From positions 1 through 64,000 of the IMG/VR virus record IMGVR_UViG_3300046834_000025: 64,000 nucleotides of DNA, one strand, 5' to 3'. The position numbers and the translations under genes are program-made. Numbering within the stretch: the stretch's first letter is position 1; every line of letters begins with the position of its first letter. The notes below the pieces were generated by a model. The model was not told the origin of the DNA, searched no databases, and worked only from the letters and a program-made list of their open reading frames with translations. Below, piece after piece: positions 19,972 through 50,526 of this stretch. This DNA comes from a virus.

Positions 19972-20072
19972 GAGGTTGCCACCTCTGGACCTCGTGGGCC
20001 TTTCTGGTACCCTGACCATAGGGTGCCCTCGTTCGGTCGACTCCGGCAAAACGACAGGTCGCGTGGAAGGAA
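19972..20072 (+). repeat. 101-bp structured element, copy 1
   Basis: Begins GAGGTTGCCACCTC and ends GACAGGTCGCGTGGAAGGAA. Copy 2 lies at 31395-31495 with the same length and about 16 differences by hand alignment. Both contain self-pairing GAGGT/ACCTC and ACCCT/AGGGT stems and lie 75-170 bp upstream of strong promoters, after the end of an operon. Confidence 0.8.
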
Positions 20073-27240: not shown

Positions 27241-28594
27241 ATGACCTATGATCCCCGCTTGCACGAATATCAGTTGCGAGCGATCGAACATCTGCTTGGA
27301 ACCGGCGAACGCGGTTCAGCGTTGTTACTTGACATGGGCCTCGGTTGAAGGCAAGACCGCTACCGTCTTGCAGGCGATCGACGAGCGCCACCTTCCGATG
27401 CTTGTGTTGGCACCCAAGAGGGTTGCCGAAGAAGTGTGGCTGGAACAGCGTGACCTCTGGCGACCTGGTCTGGACATGGTCGTGGCGACCGGCAGCCCGA
27501 CCACGCGGGCCAACAAGCGTGCCAGAGACGCCGATGTCGTCGTCATGACCCGCGACAACGTGGGTGACTTCGGAGACCGGAAGCACCCGTTCCGCACTGT
27601 CGTCCTGGACGAGTCGTCCGGCTACAAGGACAAAGGTACCGCCCGTTGGAGGGCGACTAACAAGGTAGTCAACAAGAGTCACTTCACTTGGGCATTGACT
27701 GGCACACCTGCGCCGAACAGCTACATGGACCTCTGGGCACAGATGTACCTGCTCGACCACGGCAAGCGACTTGAGACCACGTTGGGGGCGTATAGGAACC
27801 GCTACTTCGACGCTGGACGCCGGACGAAGATCACCAACATCGTCTACGAGTGGTTGCTCAAGCCTGGTGCCAAGGACTCGATCAACAAGAGGCTTGAGGA
27901 CCTTTGCCTCTCAATGAGAGCCGAAGACTACCTGACGCTTCCAGAGCTCACCTTCAACGAGGTACGGGTCAAGATACCGCCCGTGGCGAAGCGAGCTTAT
28001 GAAGACCTGCATAAGGTCTTGGTCGCCGACCTGACGCTCATGGGAGGGTATGTCCACACTGCAGCGAACGCGGCTGTCCTCTCGAACCGTCTGCGTCAGG
28101 TGTGTGCCGGATTCCTCTACGAGGACGGCAACACGGACAACCACACCTGGTTGCACGACGAGAAGATGCGTGCGTTGCAGGAGATCGTCGATGGTACTGG
28201 CTCGCCGGTCCTGGTCTTCTACCAGTTCAAGGAGGAAGAGCGAAAGATCCTCTCTGTCATCGATGGTGCCGTCTCGATCCGCGAGCCAGGCATCATTCCT
28301 GCCTGGAACCGTGGAGAGGTACGAGCCCTGGTCGCACACCCGCAGTCAGCCGGTCACGGTCTCAACCTGCAGCACGGCGGTCACACGATCGTCTACACCA
28401 CCTTGCCGTGGTCTGGTGAGGAGTGGGAGCAGTCCGTTCACCGCCTGCACCGCCAGGGACAGCGCAACGCTGTTGTCGTCCACTGGCTCTGGGCAGGCCC
28501 GATCGACCGTACCGCCTTCAACACGGTGCAAGACAAGAAGTCCGTACAGGACGGGCTCAAGTCGTACCTCCGAGAGACAGACCTGTGGCTATGA
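27241..28594 (+). CDS. SNF2-type DNA helicase with a frame break in Walker A
   Basis: The ATG has a strong AAGGAGGTGAT site and opens a frame ending LLLDMGLG then TGA. The next frame (+1) continues GKTATVLQAIDER and runs 415 codons to the end. Across both, the protein is a phage SNF2/SF2 helicase of about 448 residues: motif I MGLGKT, motif II VLDESS, motif III LTGTPAPNS, and C-terminal motifs V/VI AGHGLNLQ and SVHRLHRQGQ. TGA at 27346-27348 separates GGT from GGC. Removing 7 nt restores MGLGKT exactly. Options: ribosome hop, +1 shift (giving MGLGEGKT), real inactivation, or sequence error. Normally it remodels replication or recombination intermediates. Confidence 0.8.
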
Positions 28595-29130
28595 ACTACG
28601 ATGCAGCACACTATAGTCTTCGCAAGGCGCGAGGACTCGCTTCCGCATACGCGTGCGTGAACTGCGATGCGCAGGCACGCGACTGGTCATACCAGTACAA
28701 CGCAGGGGCAGATGAGCTTACAGAAGGTCGGAGACGATACTCAGCCAACCCGGATCACTACGTGCCGATGTGTCGGCGCTGCCACAAGGCTTTCGATGCA
28801 GAGCATGATCCCTCGATCACAGAAGCTCTAGCAGCCAGTGGGCGGAGAAACATCGTACACTGCCTAGAGGTGAAGGCTGAACGGTTAGCGACTGACCCTG
28901 AATACGCTGCACGAGTTGCCGACCATGCGCGTACCATGTGGACACCAGAAGGCAGCCTGGCAGGTGGGCTGGCCGTCATGGAGAAGATCGGTCCAGAACA
29001 GTGGAGCGAGAACGCAAGTCGAGGAGGTACAACCGTCAGCAAGCAAACACGAGAGTGCGAGTGCGGGTTAATCAGCAACCCCGGAGCAGTTGGAAGACAT
29101 CTGAGTGCAACAGGGCACTCACTGAAGTGA
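28591..29130 (+). CDS. HNH endonuclease at the 3' end of the SNF2 gene
   Basis: 179 residues. Zinc-type HNH core: ACVNCDAQARDWSYQYNAGA, then YVPMCRRCHKAFD. The C-terminal ~30 residues form a second Cys/His motif (CECG...GRHLSATGH) shared with the HNH protein at 45.1 kb. ATG overlaps the helicase stop. Directly after its stop, 29130-29153 encode K-E-T-D-L-W-L-stop, a recoded copy of the helicase C-terminus R-E-T-D-L-W-L-stop. A homing-type cassette. Confidence 0.85.
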   Translation: MNYDAAHYSLRKARGLASAYACVNCDAQARDWSYQYNAGADELTEGRRRYSANPDHYVPMCRRCHKAFDAEHDPSITEALAASGRRNIVHCLEVKAERLATDPEYAARVADHARTMWTPEGSLAGGLAVMEKIGPEQWSENASRGGTTVSKQTRECECGLISNPGAVGRHLSATGHSLK

Positions 29131-29153
29131 AGGAGACTGATCTATGGCTATGA
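29130..29153 (+). repeat. Recoded duplicate of the SNF2 helicase 3' end
   Basis: Eight codons ending ETDLWL-stop, in a frame with no start of its own. Compared with 28571-28594 it differs mostly at synonymous positions (ACA/ACT, GAC/GAT, CTG/CTA), as expected for DNA brought from a related phage rather than a fresh copy. Confidence 0.8.
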
Positions 29154-29377
29154 AGCTCAAGACGATCTGGACCATGCCTGCGATGAGCTTGCGAGAGCGG
29201 TTCGGTCGCACCTACGACCTGGTGCTGATCAAGCTGGCGCACCATCTGCCTGCCTCTCTCAAGTACCGCGTCTTCCTGGATGTCGGGGCAGCCAACATCC
29301 GGCCCGACGAGACCGTGCCCAGCGTGTACTATTTCGATATCCTGCAGCGCATGGAGGTTGGTCGCCGTGGCGAGTGA
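29144..29377 (+). CDS. Hypothetical protein, 77 residues
   Basis: Basic helical N-terminus with LRERFGRTYDLVLIKLAHHL and a short beta end. AAGGAGA is 8 nt before this ATG; an ATG two codons later overlaps the duplicated helicase stop and may be the ancestral start. Its 3' end overlaps the next gene. Confidence 0.62.
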   Translation: MAMKLKTIWTMPAMSLRERFGRTYDLVLIKLAHHLPASLKYRVFLDVGAANIRPDETVPSVYYFDILQRMEVGRRGE

Positions 29378-30330: not shown

Positions 30331-30457
30331 GACCTGCGCTGAAGAGGCACGCAGGATGGTCGATCACCTGACCACCGAACTCGAGAGGCTGCGAGCGCAA
30401 AACGAGCAGCTACACATCGAGATCCAGAACCCAGAGATGAGGATCGATTGGAACTGA
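30275..30457 (+). CDS. Small protein with CxxC and coiled-coil helix
   Basis: 60 residues: CPVCTAPHGTPHRKTC, then a long helix (ARRMVDHLTTELERLRAQNE). GGAGGAAAGC before the ATG. The last residues MRIDWN-stop recall the RPDW start of the deaminase beyond the HNH gene, so the 3' end may be a remnant created by HNH insertion (weak). Confidence 0.62.
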   Translation: MSRLICPVCTAPHGTPHRKTCAEEARRMVDHLTTELERLRAQNEQLHIEIQNPEMRIDWN

Positions 30458-31005
30458 TCAAGCCGTGTCGTCGAGGTCTCCACGATCTCGCCGATACGGT
30501 CAACGTCTACGTGCAGCCAAGTACCGGCAAGCCGCAATGCAAGCGGTGCATGGCTGACCGGCGCAAGAGGAACAGGCAGCGCAAGGCAGATCAGTATGCA
30601 GCAGTTACCAAAGCCTGGAGAGAACAGAACAAAGAGAGGAATGCTGCAGTACGACGCGCCAACAAGGAGGGTGTAGCTAAGTGGAACAAGACGTATCGCC
30701 AGAACAACCCGGAGAAGTTCCAAGGGTACCAACGAAAGAGACGTGCGCTGAAGGCTAGCCTGCCTTCGGAGCCGTACACCAGGCAGGACATCATCGATCG
30801 TGATGGAACGGACTGTGGTCTCTGTGGAGAGCCTGTCGATCTTGAGCTCAAGTACCCAGATCATCTGTCGCCGTCGATCGACCACGTCATCCCGATCACC
30901 AGGCAAGGACCAGATACCCTTGCGAACGTGCAACTCGCGCACCTGATTTGCAACATACGCAAGCACAACCACCTGGAGGAGAAGGACCTTGAACGAGCGT
31001 CCTGA
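30448..31005 (+). CDS. HNH endonuclease (paralogue of the terminase-adjacent one)
   Basis: 185 residues. Basic helical N-terminus with one zinc knuckle (CRRG...CKRC), then EPYTRQDIIDRDGTDCGLCG, SIDHVIPIT and ANVQLAHLICNIRKHN. The HNH half is closely similar to the protein at 4.66-5.41 kb; the N-terminal halves differ. TTG start overlapping the previous gene by 10 bp; the 3' end overlaps the deaminase by 17 bp. Confidence 0.82.
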   Translation: MELIKPCRRGLHDLADTVNVYVQPSTGKPQCKRCMADRRKRNRQRKADQYAAVTKAWREQNKERNAAVRRANKEGVAKWNKTYRQNNPEKFQGYQRKRRALKASLPSEPYTRQDIIDRDGTDCGLCGEPVDLELKYPDHLSPSIDHVIPITRQGPDTLANVQLAHLICNIRKHNHLEEKDLERAS

Positions 31006-31387
31006 TTGGCATAGCTATTTCTTGATCATCGCTCAAGCCGTCGCGACCCGTGGCGAGTGCGTCAGGAGCAAGGTAGGTGCCGTGATCGTTCGCGATCAGC
31101 GCATCCTCGCGACAGGCTACAATGGCGTGGCCGCAGGAGAGCCGTCGTGCCTGGATGGCATCTGTCCGCGTGCTCAGAACCGAGTACCACACGGTACTCC
31201 TTATACTGGCGCTGGTGCCTGCATCGCCAAGCACGCCGAGATGAACGCGATCGAGGACGCAGAGCGCAGAGAGATCGATATCGAAGGTGCCTGGATGTAC
31301 CTCACGAAGGAGCCCTGTGAGCAGTGTGTCGGCCAGCTTGACGCCTACAGGCTCTCCGTCATGTGGCCGGACGACCCTACATCCTAG
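30989..31387 (+). CDS. dCMP/deoxycytidylate deaminase
   Basis: 132 residues with the zinc deaminase signature HAE at 82-84 and PCEQC at 109-113. It converts dCMP to dUMP, feeding thymidylate synthesis. TTG start supported by GGAGGAGAAGGACC just upstream and by the typical N-terminus RPDWHSYF. Lies at the end of the rightward operon with MazG-like genes. Confidence 0.9.
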   Translation: MNERPDWHSYFLIIAQAVATRGECVRSKVGAVIVRDQRILATGYNGVAAGEPSCLDGICPRAQNRVPHGTPYTGAGACIAKHAEMNAIEDAERREIDIEGAWMYLTKEPCEQCVGQLDAYRLSVMWPDDPTS

Positions 31388-31394
31388 CTTGCTG

Positions 31395-31495
31395 GAGGTT
31401 GCCACCTCTGGACCTCGAGGCCCACTTGAGTACCCTCACCATAGGGTGCCCTCGTTCGGGCCACTCTGGCGTTTTGACAGGTCGCGTGGAAGGAA
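31395..31495 (+). repeat. 101-bp structured element, copy 2
   Basis: Same length as copy 1 with about 16 differences. The most striking is CGTTTTG here against CAAAACG in copy 1, an exact flip of a 7-bp segment between shared GGC and ACAGGTCGC flanks. TTGATCATG follows a short way downstream in both copies. Confidence 0.8.
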
Positions 31496-31756: not shown

Positions 31757-32797
31757 GTGGCCCACGAAATCACCGACACCGACACCGTCATCTCCGTCCG
31801 TGACGCAGGCTGGCACGGCCTGGCCAAGGTGCTCGACGACTACGTCACGCCGGAAGAGGCTCGCAAGGCTGCCTTCGACTGGGAGCCGATCACCACGCCT
31901 CTCTACCGTGGCGTTCCGGTCATTGGTGACGACGGCTATGTCAGCCGGGGATACGAGCTCATCGAGGGCACTGTCGGCGTGGAGCGCAGCGACAACGGCG
32001 TCTTCTTCGGCGCTGTCAGCAAGGAACTCGGCGAGACGCTGGAGCACACCAACAACAAGACCCTGACCGAGGTGGCCGAAGCCGTCGAGGGCATCGCCGC
32101 TGGTGATGTCCGGGTCGAGACCGCTGGCAGCCTCAAGGGTGGCCGGAAGGTCTGGATGCTCCTCCGCCTCAACGAGCCGATTGCCATCAAGGGTGACCCG
32201 CACGGCGACACGATCCCCTACTTCGCGCTCCAGACCTCCCACGACGGCACCGGCTCGTTCCGTGGGCAGGCTCTGTTCACCCGCGTGATCTGCGACAACA
32301 CCGCTCAGATGGCCGACCTCGAGGCCGCGAAGCGCGGCACGGAGTTCACCTTCCGCCACACCTCCGGCATCAAGGACCGAATCGAAGAGGCGAAGGCTGC
32401 CGTCGCCATGTGGCGCAAGAGCGTGGAGGACTGGAACACGCTCATGGGCAACCTGATGGATCTCAAGATCACCGTGAAGCAGCAGGAACTCTTCGTCGAC
32501 CAGTGGCAGCCGCTGATGCTGCCGGAGGGTCTGGCCGTCAGCCAGCGCGTGCAGAACAACATCGAGACTGCTCGCGGTGAGTTCTGGGGCATCATGAACG
32601 GCGTCACCACGGAGGGCATCGACCTCACGGCCTACGGACTGGTGCAGGCCGCGATTGAACACCAGCAACATGTTCGGAGCGTCCGCGCTGACTCGGATCT
32701 CGCTCGTGCTGAAAGCCGCTTCAACCGTGCCTACCTGCAGCGCGATAGCCTGACCACCCTCGCCGTGAAGCTCGCTCGTGAGGTTGCGGCAGCCTGA
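31757..32797 (+). CDS. DUF932 protein (phage/plasmid-like)
   Basis: 346 residues matching the DUF932 / TIGR03299 pattern throughout: AGWHGLAKVLDD, YELIEGTVGVERSDNGVFFG, GGRKVWMLLRLNEP, ALFTRVICDNTAQMA. GTG start with AGGAAGGGAAG upstream, just after a strong promoter. Highly expressed early proteins in many actinophages; biochemical role unknown. The last four codons read AREVAAA and its stop overlaps the HNH ATG. Confidence 0.88.
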   Translation: MAHEITDTDTVISVRDAGWHGLAKVLDDYVTPEEARKAAFDWEPITTPLYRGVPVIGDDGYVSRGYELIEGTVGVERSDNGVFFGAVSKELGETLEHTNNKTLTEVAEAVEGIAAGDVRVETAGSLKGGRKVWMLLRLNEPIAIKGDPHGDTIPYFALQTSHDGTGSFRGQALFTRVICDNTAQMADLEAAKRGTEFTFRHTSGIKDRIEEAKAAVAMWRKSVEDWNTLMGNLMDLKITVKQQELFVDQWQPLMLPEGLAVSQRVQNNIETARGEFWGIMNGVTTEGIDLTAYGLVQAAIEHQQHVRSVRADSDLARAESRFNRAYLQRDSLTTLAVKLAREVAAA

Positions 32798-33306
32798 TGA
32801 ACTCCGGCGTGCCGACCCTGGCCAACCTGCTCAGCAAGTTCGAGCAGGTCGGCTCGGGGTGCTGGGAGTGGGTCAACCCGACTCACAAGCAGGGCTACGG
32901 TACGATCAGGTGGGACGGGCGAACGGTCTTCGCTCACCGGCTGATGGTGGCTGCAGTCTACGGCGTAACGCTCGAACAGATCCGAGAAGATGTAGTCCGG
33001 CACTCATGTGACAACACGTCGTGTGTCAACCCGCTTCATCTGCTCGTAGGAACACAACAGCAGAACTGTTTCGATCGGCTAATCCGTGGCCGACGCGTCG
33101 AACGACTAAACAACACAAGGCGTCTCTCCGTCGACATCGTTACGGAGATGCGACGTCGAGCACGGCAAGGCGAACGAGGTGTTGCTTTGGCACACGAGTT
33201 CGGAATTTCGAAGAGCAGCACCTATCAAGCAATCCGAGGCTACACATGGTCATGGATTGAAGAACCACCCGTCACAACACTGAGAGGAAACCGACATGAA
33301 CAGTAA
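32797..33306 (+). CDS. HNH endonuclease with C-terminal HTH
   Basis: 169 residues. HNH_3-type His-Me finger: GCWEWVNPTHKQGYGTIRWD, AHRLMVAAVYG, VRHSCDNTS-CVNPLHLLVGT. C-terminal HTH: RRARQGERGVALAHEFGISK followed by SSTYQAIRGYTW. TGATG overlap with DUF932. It opens M-N-S (ATG AAC TCC) and the gene it overlaps downstream also opens M-N-S (ATG AAC AGT), a possible recoded-end insertion. Confidence 0.83.
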   Translation: MNSGVPTLANLLSKFEQVGSGCWEWVNPTHKQGYGTIRWDGRTVFAHRLMVAAVYGVTLEQIREDVVRHSCDNTSCVNPLHLLVGTQQQNCFDRLIRGRRVERLNNTRRLSVDIVTEMRRRARQGERGVALAHEFGISKSSTYQAIRGYTWSWIEEPPVTTLRGNRHEQ

Positions 33307-33640
33307 GAACACCGGCGCAGTCAAGATGGTCACGGACCTGTTGAAGCACGAGTGGGCATCAAGGGAGGTTGGTAAAAGCGTTCTCATCAATCCCGTCATC
33401 TTCGCAGCAAAGAACAATCTCTCAGCAGAGGTAGTCACGGGTGCCTTGCAGGATATCGCTCGCCCCGGTGCACCTCACACCTGGATCACCCGTGTTGCAA
33501 AGGGTGTCTATGAGATCGTAAGCGAGCCCATGAGTGCGCGTGAAGCGAGCGGTAATACCTCGCATCACTCGCGTATCAGTGCGCTCGAAGCTGAAGTCGC
33601 AGATCTCCGTGACATCCTTAAGCGTGCTGGACTCATCTGA
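33296..33640 (+). CDS. Winged-helix-like protein with coiled coil
   Basis: 114 residues. The N-terminal ~75 residues resemble a small winged-helix (FAAKNNLSAEVVTGALQDIA, then ITRVAKGVYEIV), ending with a coiled coil (ISALEAEVADLRDILKRAGL). Ribosome cassette GAGAGGAAACCG upstream. Possible DNA-binding regulator (inference). Confidence 0.65.
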   Translation: MNSKNTGAVKMVTDLLKHEWASREVGKSVLINPVIFAAKNNLSAEVVTGALQDIARPGAPHTWITRVAKGVYEIVSEPMSAREASGNTSHHSRISALEAEVADLRDILKRAGLI

Positions 33641-45074: not shown

Positions 45075-45614
45075 ATGGACCTCACCCCGGCAAAGACCTA
45101 CGAACAGATGCACAGTGGTCTTCACTGGGCCTTTGGACGGGCGAAGGACTACGTGTGCATCGAGTGTGGCCAGCAGGCTGAAGATTGGGCGTACCAGTAT
45201 ACTTCCATTGATCCTCAAATAGATACGAAGAACAGAGTCTACAGCGAGTCTTTCGATGATTACGCGCCCATGTGCCGTAGCTGCCATCGTCGGTTCGACA
45301 TGCTCAGACCCGAACGGCGCGAAGCTCAGCTAGCCCACCTAGCTCGAGTGCATGCTGCGATCGCAGCCGATCCTGTTGCGCAAGAACGACGCCGCGAAGC
45401 AGGAGTCAAGGGACGACAGGTAATAGCTGAAATGCGGGCACAAGGGGTGCCTATGGCTAGAGGACGGAGAACGGACACTGCAAACCTACGCGTACTAGGG
45501 AAGATGGTTGGGAGTATACGACGACGTTGCAACACTTGTGGACTAGAGACGGCGGCAGGCCCGCTAGCGCGTCATCAGACTAAGTCTGGACATACAGGCT
45601 GGACGGTAGCATAA
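45075..45614 (+). CDS. HNH endonuclease at the 5' end of the polymerase gene
   Basis: 179 residues, related to the 28.6-kb HNH protein: YVCIECGQQAEDWAYQY, then YAPMCRSCHRRFD, and a C-terminal CNTCG...LARHQTKSGH motif. It opens M-D-L (ATG GAC CTC), as does the polymerase directly after it (ATG GAT CTA), both synonymous. Codon use, and that of the first ~250 bp of the polymerase, is more AT-rich than the surroundings. Confidence 0.84.
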   Translation: MDLTPAKTYEQMHSGLHWAFGRAKDYVCIECGQQAEDWAYQYTSIDPQIDTKNRVYSESFDDYAPMCRSCHRRFDMLRPERREAQLAHLARVHAAIAADPVAQERRREAGVKGRQVIAEMRAQGVPMARGRRTDTANLRVLGKMVGSIRRRCNTCGLETAAGPLARHQTKSGHTGWTVA

Positions 45615-48049: not shown

Positions 48050-48408
48050 TGCCGTCTCGCGCTGAGCTCGCATTGACGGTGCGGTGTCCGTTCTGCCGTG
48101 CCCGACCAGGTGCGCCATGCCTGTACTCCGATGTCAAGCCGAACAAGTACCGCTACGACTGGAAGAAGGACCGGGAAGCTCTCAACGGCACGCCGACCAA
48201 GATGCCTCACCAGCAACGCTTCCATGCTCTCTTTGACAAGGAGACTCGAGATGCGATGCGAGAGCGGTACAGAGACGTGATGGCTATTCGGATGCTGCCC
48301 TACCAGGTGGCCAACATCCGGGCCTTGCGTGAGTTCGATCGGCATGAGGCAGAACAGCTTGCGACCTGGTTCCGTACCTACGGCAGCATCTTCGAGGAGA
48401 TCCGATGA
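48049..48408 (+). CDS. Zinc-ribbon protein, 119 residues
   Basis: N-terminal CPFCRARPGAPC...H-like knuckle, similar to the 37.5-kb protein, then basic helices (FHALFDKETRDAMRERYRDV). Its stop overlaps an ATG that opens a truncated copy of the epimerase start. Confidence 0.66.
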   Translation: MPSRAELALTVRCPFCRARPGAPCLYSDVKPNKYRYDWKKDREALNGTPTKMPHQQRFHALFDKETRDAMRERYRDVMAIRMLPYQVANIRALREFDRHEAEQLATWFRTYGSIFEEIR

Positions 48409-48423
48409 CCAAGAGAGTGCTTC
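48405..48423 (+). repeat. Recoded remnant of the epimerase 5' end
   Basis: Opens M-T-K-R-V-L then diverges and stops. The real epimerase at 48894 also opens M-T-K-R-V-L, with three synonymous codon changes (AGA/CGC, GTG/GTA, CTT/CTC). The HNH gene starts at 48424. Confidence 0.8.
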
Positions 48424-48897
48424 ATGGCTAAGAAGGGCGAGCGGACTGCTGACCGGGTGCAGGTCACCTGTCCGTGTGGCACAGAGTTCGAAGTCACCAG
48501 ACGCCGGTTCGAGGAAGGCCGTGGTCGGCGGTGCTCCAAGCCGTGTACCTACAAGTACATGGAACGCCCAAGTGGTTTGACGTACAACATCGTTCAGGAG
48601 AACGCAGCCTGGAAGAAGCCTGGCGATGAGCCCTGGAACAAGGGCATGGTCATGAAGGACGAGATCACCTACAAGGAGCTTCACAAGTGGGTTGCACGAC
48701 ACCGTGAGAAGACTGGTGTGTGCGAGCACTGTGGAGAAACACGCAAGACCGAGTGGGCAAACAAGAGTCATACGTACCAACGCGACCTGGCCGACTGGCT
48801 TGAGTTGTGTAAGAAATGTCATGGCAAGCATGACAGCGGAGAGAATCGAGGCAAAGCCGTGGAAAAGTTCGGAGTGAAGCAGGTGGCTTGCAGATGA
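48424..48897 (+). CDS. HNH endonuclease at the 5' end of the epimerase gene
   Basis: 157 residues. An N-terminal Cys4 motif (CPCGTEFEV...CSKPC), then a NUMOD-like basic part (EPWNKGMVMKDEITYKELHK) and an HNH-like core with CEHCGETRKTEWANKSH and CKKCHGKHD. The ATG lies just inside the truncated epimerase copy and its stop overlaps the intact epimerase ATG. Confidence 0.82.
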   Translation: MAKKGERTADRVQVTCPCGTEFEVTRRRFEEGRGRRCSKPCTYKYMERPSGLTYNIVQENAAWKKPGDEPWNKGMVMKDEITYKELHKWVARHREKTGVCEHCGETRKTEWANKSHTYQRDLADWLELCKKCHGKHDSGENRGKAVEKFGVKQVACR

Positions 48898-49988
48898 CCA
48901 AGCGCGTACTCCTCAGCGGAGCGGGTGGCTTCGCTGGCTCGCACGCTCTGCGGCACATCCTGGCGACGACAGACTGGGATGTCGTTGCGCCGGTCACGTT
49001 CTCTCACAAGGGTCTCAGCGACCGTATCCGACTTGCGATGGACGACATGCCGGAAGCCGCCACACGAGTCAAGGTCCTACGCTGCGACCTGGCCGCGTCG
49101 ATCAGTCCCGTGACGGACGACGCCTTCGGCCACATCGACTACGTGCTGAACTTCGCCTCTGAGTCGCACGTCGATCGCTCCATCCGGCAGCCTGGTCCGT
49201 TCATCCGCAACAACGTTGCACTCATGACGCACCTGCTCGACTGGGCGGCCAGCCGTTCAGAGCTCCAGGCTTTCATCCAGATCTCGACGGACGAGGTGTA
49301 CGGTCCCGCGCCAGTCGGCTACAACCACCACGAGTGGCACGACCAGCACTTGCCGTCGAACCCGTACAGTGCGAGCAAGGCTGCGATGGAGGACATCGCC
49401 TTCGCGTACTGGCGCACCTACGATCTGCCGATCGTGATCACGAACACGATGAACCTCGTCGGCGAGACGCAGGATGCCGAGAAGTTCGTGCCGATGACGA
49501 TCAGCAAGGTTCTCAACGGCAAGCCGATGACCATCCACGCCAGCAGGTCCGGCAAGCCTGGCAGTAGGTTCTACCTCCACGCTCGCAACCAGGCTGACGG
49601 CGTGCTGCACGTCCTAAAGTACCTCACGCAGGCAAGGACGGTCGAGTTCCAGGGCAGCACCCGCCTCTCGTGGGATCACGTCACCGACCAGGAGACCGGC
49701 GAAAGCCTGCTCCATAGCGAGGGTGGCACCAAGCCGTTCCGCTACCACATCGTTGGTGAGCGCGAGGTTGACAACCTCGAGATGGCACAGATGATCGCTC
49801 AGGCAGTTGGAAAGCCGCTGCAGTATGACCTCGTGGACTTCCATTCGAGTCGTCCTGGACACGATCTTCGCTACGGGTTGGACGGCGAGAAACTGGCAGG
49901 CATCGACTGGGCACCTCCGGTGCCGCTGGACGAGAGCCTGCAGCGCATGGTGAAGTGGACCCTCGATCACCCGGAATGGCTGCTATGA
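48894..49988 (+). CDS. NAD-dependent epimerase/dehydratase, dTDP-glucose 4,6-dehydratase-like
   Basis: 364 residues, extended SDR. Rossmann motif GAGGFAGSH at 9-17, ASESHVDRSI, catalytic STDEVYG around 130 and NPYSASKAAME (Tyr/Lys) around 155-162. The T-D-E-V-Y-G form points to RmlB-type dehydratases that make keto-deoxy sugars. Followed by three glycosyltransferases, so it likely supplies or edits a sugar for virion, DNA or host-surface glycosylation (inference). Flanked on both ends by HNH cassettes. Confidence 0.87.
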   Translation: MTKRVLLSGAGGFAGSHALRHILATTDWDVVAPVTFSHKGLSDRIRLAMDDMPEAATRVKVLRCDLAASISPVTDDAFGHIDYVLNFASESHVDRSIRQPGPFIRNNVALMTHLLDWAASRSELQAFIQISTDEVYGPAPVGYNHHEWHDQHLPSNPYSASKAAMEDIAFAYWRTYDLPIVITNTMNLVGETQDAEKFVPMTISKVLNGKPMTIHASRSGKPGSRFYLHARNQADGVLHVLKYLTQARTVEFQGSTRLSWDHVTDQETGESLLHSEGGTKPFRYHIVGEREVDNLEMAQMIAQAVGKPLQYDLVDFHSSRPGHDLRYGLDGEKLAGIDWAPPVPLDESLQRMVKWTLDHPEWLL

Positions 49989-50504
49989 CCAAACGGTGTC
50001 CCCGGTGTACGCGAGATCTTCCACACTCTGAGTTCGGAAGGGATAGCTGGAAACGAGACGGCCTTCAAACCTACTGCCGGACATGTTGTTCAGCGAGAAT
50101 GCAAGAGCACAAGATTCGGACAAACAAGCGTTGTCCAGACTGTGAGGCTCTCATCAGCCCCTATCGAGATCGTTGCCGCAAATGTTCTACTCTGGGTGAG
50201 AGAAGTGCTCGTTGGATCAGTGGACGGCAGAGGGATCGGAAGGGCTACGTTATCCTCAGCATAGCACAAGCACCGGGTGCTCTCAAGACACGACAGGGGG
50301 GGACAGATAGCTGAGCACCGATACGTCATGGAGCAGATCCTTGGTCGCGCTCTCCTCCCAACAGAAACCGTCCACCACAAGAACGGGGTCCGGGATGACA
50401 ACCGACCTGAGAACCTCGAGCTCTGGTCTACCAGTCAGCCACCAGGCCAGCGAATCGAGGACAAGCTCCAATGGGCTCGTGAGTTCATCCGGCTGTACGG
50501 TTGA
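49985..50504 (+). pseudogene. HNH endonuclease with a G-run frameshift, at the 3' end of the epimerase gene
   Basis: First frame: zinc-rich N-terminus (CPRCTRDLPHSEFGRDSW, CRTCC, CPDC, CRKC) to ...RQGGTDS-stop. Second frame (+1), after a run of seven G at 50296-50302: QIAEHRYVMEQILGRALLPT, HHKNGVRDDNRPENLELW, an intact HNH_3 core. Six G would join the two. ATG overlaps the epimerase stop. Its own stop lies in a second copy of the epimerase 3' end (D-H-P-E-W-L). Decay, recoding or a homopolymer sequencing error are all possible. Confidence 0.8.
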
Positions 50505-50526
50505 TCACCCGGAATGGTTGCGTTGA
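50503..50526 (+). repeat. Recoded duplicate of the epimerase 3' end
   Basis: Encodes D-H-P-E-W-L-R-stop, matching D-H-P-E-W-L-L-stop at the end of the real gene (49965-49988). Fifteen bases are identical, then TGG-C/T-TGC diverges. Confidence 0.8.

Follow-up and report, generated by a model that had tools for sequence, protein, structure and literature searches.

Why should the end of a phage helicase gene occur twice, once on either side of a gene for an HNH-type nuclease? The question arises in what we call the window, the 64 kb of DNA analyzed here out of a 77,833-base IMG/VR virus record, in which the helicase, the epimerase, the HNH genes and the duplicated gene ends discussed below all lie on the plus strand. 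The terminase encoded in the window is most similar to those of Microbacterium phages (~50% identity) and the helicase to that of Glutamicibacter phage Montesquieu (45% identity); no close relative of the window phage was identified in the collections searched. The host gene at the locus, which encodes an SNF2-type DNA helicase (27241-28594; PF00176, E=7e-10; phrog_62, E=1e-105), terminates at 28571-28594 with CGAGAGACAGACCTGTGGCTATGA, which reads RETDLWL followed by a stop and is the copy in use. The nuclease gene, denoted H1 (28591-29130; 179 aa; phrog_4160, E=1e-18), begins over this stop in an ATGA overlap, with its ATG at 28591 inside CTATGA, and extends to the TGA at 29128-29130. The last base of that TGA (29130) is at the same time the first base of a second version of the helicase terminus, AAGGAGACTGATCTATGGCTATGA (29130-29153), which reads KETDLWL and a stop in a frame that has no start codon. 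The two copies, with 559 nt between them, are identical at 19/22 nt (28574-28595 vs 29133-29154); within ETDLWL there are three synonymous and no non-synonymous changes, and the preceding codon differs (R/K).

The strength of this duplication was assessed by comparing what lies on either side of H1, in all frames, by amino-acid score; ~5,950 pairs of gene boundaries drawn at random from the same window served as the null distribution. The pair LRETDLWL/VKETDLWL, each with its stop, scores 42, a value reached by 0 of the ~5,950 random pairs (p < 2e-4). The start-less, synonymously altered duplicate reported by the first-pass annotation of this DNA can be read directly and stands up to this test; the word "recoded" that was applied to it there is too strong, given that the copies differ at three synonymous sites and that nothing shows cleavage to be blocked.

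The downstream copy adjoins the next gene, a 77-aa ORF (29150-29377) that is readable from 29144, the ATG given by the ORF finder, and is homologous to other proteins from the methionine at 29150. All seven of its homologs, from Gordonia phages and viral contigs, begin with MKL, MKF or MRL, their methionine matching position 29150, where the start of the gene forms an ATGA overlap with the second TGA; the earlier claim that the next gene starts over the second stop is thereby borne out. The Shine-Dalgarno-like AAGGAG ahead of this gene (29130-29135) lies within the downstream copy itself. Because the junction with the next gene at 29150 looks undisturbed, the downstream KETDLWL is probably the native end of the helicase, whereas the upstream RETDLWL likely arrived with the HNH cassette. 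It had also been predicted that phages lacking this HNH gene would show a direct ATGA overlap between the helicase and the next gene. The seven homologs that start at the overlapping methionine agree with this prediction, but searches of phage records and viral contigs with helicase, HNH, next-gene and terminase queries returned no relative without an HNH gene at the helicase locus, and alignment of the helicase against viral and genome contigs recovered no relative of the helicase/H1 locus itself. Hence, of the HNH "cassette" of the first-pass annotation, the duplicate of the helicase C-terminus flanking H1 is real, whereas insertion and the donor origin of the upstream copy are what we infer from the arrangement of the sequence, with no HNH-free relative found.

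H1 is a separate ORF, located outside any self-splicing intron or intein; no Rfam match of any kind was obtained in the window, nor any up to E=1 at 28400-29300, and no group I or group II intron was detected. The H1 product has no Pfam match and matches an HNH family weakly (phrog_1271, E=7e-4), and its actinophage homologs are annotated as HNH endonucleases. A fold model built from two sequences (pLDDT 57) yielded no usable match. The GC content at third codon positions (GC3) of H1 is 0.56, vs 0.77 in the helicase. For H1 we infer nuclease activity and mobility and, for the new locus, resistance to cleavage; the nuclease genes of the window, placed at the ends of essential-looking genes, look like selfish DNA.

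Six HNH-type genes of the window, with starts at 28591, 30448, 32797, 45075, 48424 and 49985, were examined in the same way. The recurrence of the pattern claimed at the outset holds for the 5' and 3' ends of a nucleotide-sugar epimerase, where the HNH genes belong to unrelated families, but it is not general, as two of the six genes lack a duplicate. The epimerase (48894-49988; PF01370, E=1e-36), which starts with MTKRVLLSG and terminates with WTLDHPEWLL and a stop, is the host of H3 at its 5' end and of H4 at its 3' end. Ahead of H3 (48424-48897; weak phrog_559 HNH match, E=3e-4) lies MTKRVL (48405-48422), an orphan epimerase 5' end that matches the epimerase start at 15/18 nt (ATGACCAAGAGAGTGCTT vs ATGACCAAGCGCGTACTC; p = 0.005). 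At the opposite end, H4 (49985-50504), an HNH_3 gene (PF13392, E=7e-10, in its C-terminal part), starts over the epimerase stop, and the copy of the 3' end in use (49956-49988) matches at 26/33 nt an orphan copy after H4 (50494-50526; GATCACCCGGAATGG) that ends with DHPEWLR and a stop (score 47, p < 2e-4). Both epimerase fossils are genuine gene ends, because relatives in Arthrobacter phages (Mimi, Racecar, Atuin) share these termini, beginning with MTKRILL and ending with WTLDHPEWL or nearly so. The repeats at the epimerase 5' end, the helicase and the epimerase 3' end are 18, 22 and 33 nt long, respectively. The coding sequence of H4 falls into two frames, the break lying at seven consecutive G near 50296 (50290-50310), which reflects either a decayed gene or a sequencing error.

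A possible fourth case involves the 5' end of a dCMP deaminase (30989-31387), upstream of which lies H6 (30448-31005; PF01844, E=1e-8). The stretch ATG AGG ATC GAT TGG AAC TGA (30437-30457), preceding H6, reads MRIDWN and a stop, and related dCMP deaminases begin with MRPDW or VRPDW; the similarity is suggestive and not significant in the blind test (p = 0.21). Neither H2 (45075-45614), a relative of H1 (35% identity) located before DNA polymerase A, nor H5 (32797-33306), another HNH_3 gene (PF13392), displays a duplicate above chance in the gene-boundary test. Conceivably, such repeats could reflect chance or convergence, with common junction signals (Shine-Dalgarno, ATGA) and frequent residues, rather than common descent, producing the resemblance, an explanation that fits H2, H5 and H6, all within chance, and would account for the weak repeats in other phages. 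We consider it highly improbable for the cases at hand, given that H1 and H4 score above all null pairs and that the matching residues at the epimerase are conserved gene ends.

The origin of the copies can be approached through their composition and the nature of their differences. GC3 of the HNH genes ranges from 0.50 to 0.68, below the 0.77 of the helicase and the 0.86 of the epimerase middle. In the first and last 60 codons of the epimerase, GC3 (0.73 and 0.72) is below that of the middle (z-test p ~0.002), as if these ends were imported with the cassettes; the last 60 codons of the helicase do not differ in GC3 from the helicase body. Within the matched stretches, the differing codons are all synonymous (three in the helicase, three at the epimerase 5' end and one at the 3' end), a pattern that has to be read with the caveat that alignment on protein similarity biases towards synonymous differences, and three further codons at the edges of these stretches differ non-synonymously. 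Synonymous-only differences fit two coding sequences drifting apart, rather than the decay of a dead copy. A terminus supplied by a donor is preferred on these two grounds, the synonymous differences and the lower GC3 at both epimerase ends.

A local origin of the duplicates has nevertheless to be weighed. In the break repair that joined in the HNH gene, the recipient might have copied ~20-30 nt of its own gene junction, much as in a target-site duplication, after which the copies drifted and both were kept, one completing the upstream gene and the other supplying the next gene with its ribosome-binding site and start. At H1, the next gene does have its AAGGAG and its ATGA start within the downstream copy, which would be a reason for that copy to be retained; the varying repeat lengths (18, 22 and 33 nt) also fit, as do the HNH-flanking repeats, largely ribosome-binding sites, at the VRR-NUC/helicase junction of other phages. 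Drift in a useless copy, however, is expected at all codon positions, and the matched-codon differences are all synonymous even in the fossil ends of the epimerase, for which no current use is evident, so that we regard this scenario as rather unlikely. Gene-order shuffling, in which the second copy would be the end that remains of an additional helicase or epimerase gene once brought in by mosaic recombination, with the HNH gene a bystander, appears very unlikely: phage genomes are mosaic, and the homologs of the next gene do occur in differing neighborhoods, but such a history would have to be repeated independently at the epimerase, leaving only the first or last codons, with the HNH gene exactly between the copies each time.

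The reading that we favor, to which we assign a probability of about 60%, is that homing-type genes, each a free-standing unit, entered at the ends of host genes and brought a diverged spare terminus along. Under this proposal, H1 would have landed, as a free-standing HNH gene of the homing type, at the ATGA overlap between the helicase stop and the start of the next gene, on a segment whose own form of the final helicase codons preceded the nuclease gene. The helicase would now terminate with the imported end, the native terminus being left behind H1, where it would still provide the Shine-Dalgarno-like AAGGAG and the ATGA start to the next gene. Both host genes would retain complete ends because the spare terminus comes with the cassette, and the changed terminus would presumably guard the new locus against cutting. 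Members of other HNH families would have undergone the same kind of event at the epimerase 3' end and, in mirror image, at its 5' end. The shortness of the duplicates (18-33 nt) counts against this reading.

The closest parallel is provided by the C-terminus-replacing ORFs of fungal mitochondria (Glomus atp6, atp9, cox2 and nad3; Allomyces atp6; Phlebia cox2), which follow the host gene as H1 does (PMC3630166, PMC4019555). There, an endonuclease ORF is described as standing between a foreign C-terminus ahead of it, which is in use, and the native one behind it, and the two copies of the atp6 C-terminus are 91% identical in protein and only 63.5% in DNA (PMC3630166). The resemblance extends to the presence of the host gene end twice, flanking an endonuclease ORF, at H1 and H4, and, at H1, to copies that differ more in DNA than in protein. 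The mitochondrial elements, in contrast, are LAGLIDADG or GIY-YIG rather than phage HNH genes, involve stretches reported as ~50-240 nt compared to 18-33 nt in the window, and have close element-free relatives, whereas none was found for the window; the mirror 5' case seen at the epimerase was not encountered in the available portions of the mitochondrial descriptions. By analogy, the window cassette is likely to work as a fungal mitochondrial C-terminus-replacing ORF does, yet we do not class it as a member of that group. The Seg and Mob genes of T4 and the HNH genes of Skunavirus are likewise intronless nuclease genes located between phage genes, several per genome, and their flanking DNA is reported to be transferred as well (PMC2988022, PMC12724721). 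A text search of these two accounts returned no mention of duplication, and our literature search found no report of spare-terminus HNH insertion in a phage. If the proposal is correct, an intronless selfish gene can enter phage genes that overlap tightly and leave them unbroken, a spare diverged end being brought in on the 5' or on the 3' side; the duplicate would then be a simple signature for spotting such invasions and telling which copy is native, the frequent location of HNH genes at gene boundaries would have a possible reason, and a mechanism described in fungal mitochondria would extend to phages.

Beyond the window, no general trend emerged among 78 further phage HNH ORFs that were scanned, only a small excess consisting mostly of shared ribosome-binding sites, and no duplicate termini were seen at 8 actinophage loci with H1 relatives. 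In four helicase-bearing phage contigs (L276, L256, L204 and L269), HNH genes lie between near-identical stretches that surround the Shine-Dalgarno sequence and the start codon, for instance GGTGATGCC[A/G]AATGAAG on both sides of the HNH gene in L276; these repeats may have arisen by a junction duplication of the same kind, or else by convergence. The pair FQVYCVD/YQLYCID at locus L090, a candidate for a duplicated helicase start, was rejected, since FQVYCVD is apparently the end of an upstream VRR-NUC-like gene.

One point to correct in the first-pass annotation is that the helicase gene itself is not a single clean ORF, as an in-frame TGA (27346-27348) and a frame shift disrupt its P-loop. 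The N-terminal part (27241-27345) and the remainder (27353-28594) are separated by a 7-nt interruption within LLLDMGLGKT, in which GAC ATG GGC CTC GGT is followed by TGA AGGC before the reading resumes with AAG ACC, ending at 27358 (27337-27358; ATGGGCCTCGGTTGAAGGCAAGACC). The Montesquieu helicase has a comparable interruption, its annotated gene beginning after the P-loop, and comparable interruptions occur in several of ~140 helicase loci. Interrupted P-loops were noted at L008, L039, L041, L042, L065, L072, L108, L119, L123 and L167-L246, L119 being a Paenibacillus prophage, and they show a biased GGC-YTN-GGY codon context ahead of the stop.

A scan of viral contigs for nucleotides encoding LDMGLG and then TGA yielded at least 120 stretches, of which 80 loci were read. 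Among the matches listed, 71 of the 80 loci are helicases of the SNF2 kind, and the insert that separates KT from the last glycine codon spans, with its stop, 4-10 nt and falls in all three frames. The downstream ORFs (n=67, namely 65 among the scan matches listed plus L041 and L042) are 321-469 codons long. Pairs with the same gap, among those listed, keep it while dS reaches 0.1-1.2 at dN/dS of 0.03-0.11, and the region downstream of the P-loop stop is under strong purifying selection. Among the matches listed, all 62 interrupted P-loops have GGT or GGC as the glycine codon ahead of the stop, vs 33/60 intact ones, and 52 of the same 62 use GGC for the first glycine, vs 10/60 intact. Where the insert is 6 nt or longer, the codon before AAR is again glycine in 33/36 of the listed matches, like the GGC of the window; a codon of this kind is absent from inserts below 6 nt. 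No RNA structure signal was detected at the P-loop stop. These patterns tentatively suggest, at somewhat less than even odds, natural stop-hop translation in phage SNF2 helicases, apart from any HNH link. "Stop-hops" are known from synthetic constructs, and the bypass in T4 gene 60 takes off at GGA followed by UAG (PMC5009743); no report of a stop-hop in helicases was found in the literature.

T4 mobA/gene 60 offers a further likeness, in that a homing endonuclease gene adjoins a gene containing a stop followed by an untranslated gap (PMC5009743); the gap is 50 nt in T4 gene 60 vs 7 nt in the window, where the nuclease lies 1.2 kb downstream of it. HNH genes adjoin interrupted helicases in ~8-10 of 59 neighboring ORFs (L167-L218) and intact ones in ~3 of 70 (L028-L151), under non-independent sampling, and several interrupted helicase loci have no HNH gene at all; for these two reasons, we claim no link between the P-loop interruption and the HNH cassette. 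It is a distinctly doubtful idea, drawn from the T4 analogy, that the helicase locus could be a two-part homing system in which the HNH cassette swaps gene ends and the P-loop stop and gap, hopped over by ribosomes, remove a nuclease target; natural short stop-hops would in that case be widespread in phage SNF2 helicases.

Two further repeats were observed in the window. A 64-nt element (CTCTGATCCTGCCGACCAGGATGG...) is present in three copies between small genes, at 33635, 34245 and 34642, two of them identical, and is possibly a regulatory or recombination repeat. A 66-nt repeat (GTACCCTNACCATAGGGTGCCCTCGTTCGG...) occurs at 20007-20072 and 31430-31495, 11 kb apart and 86% identical, and is perhaps a promoter or operator.
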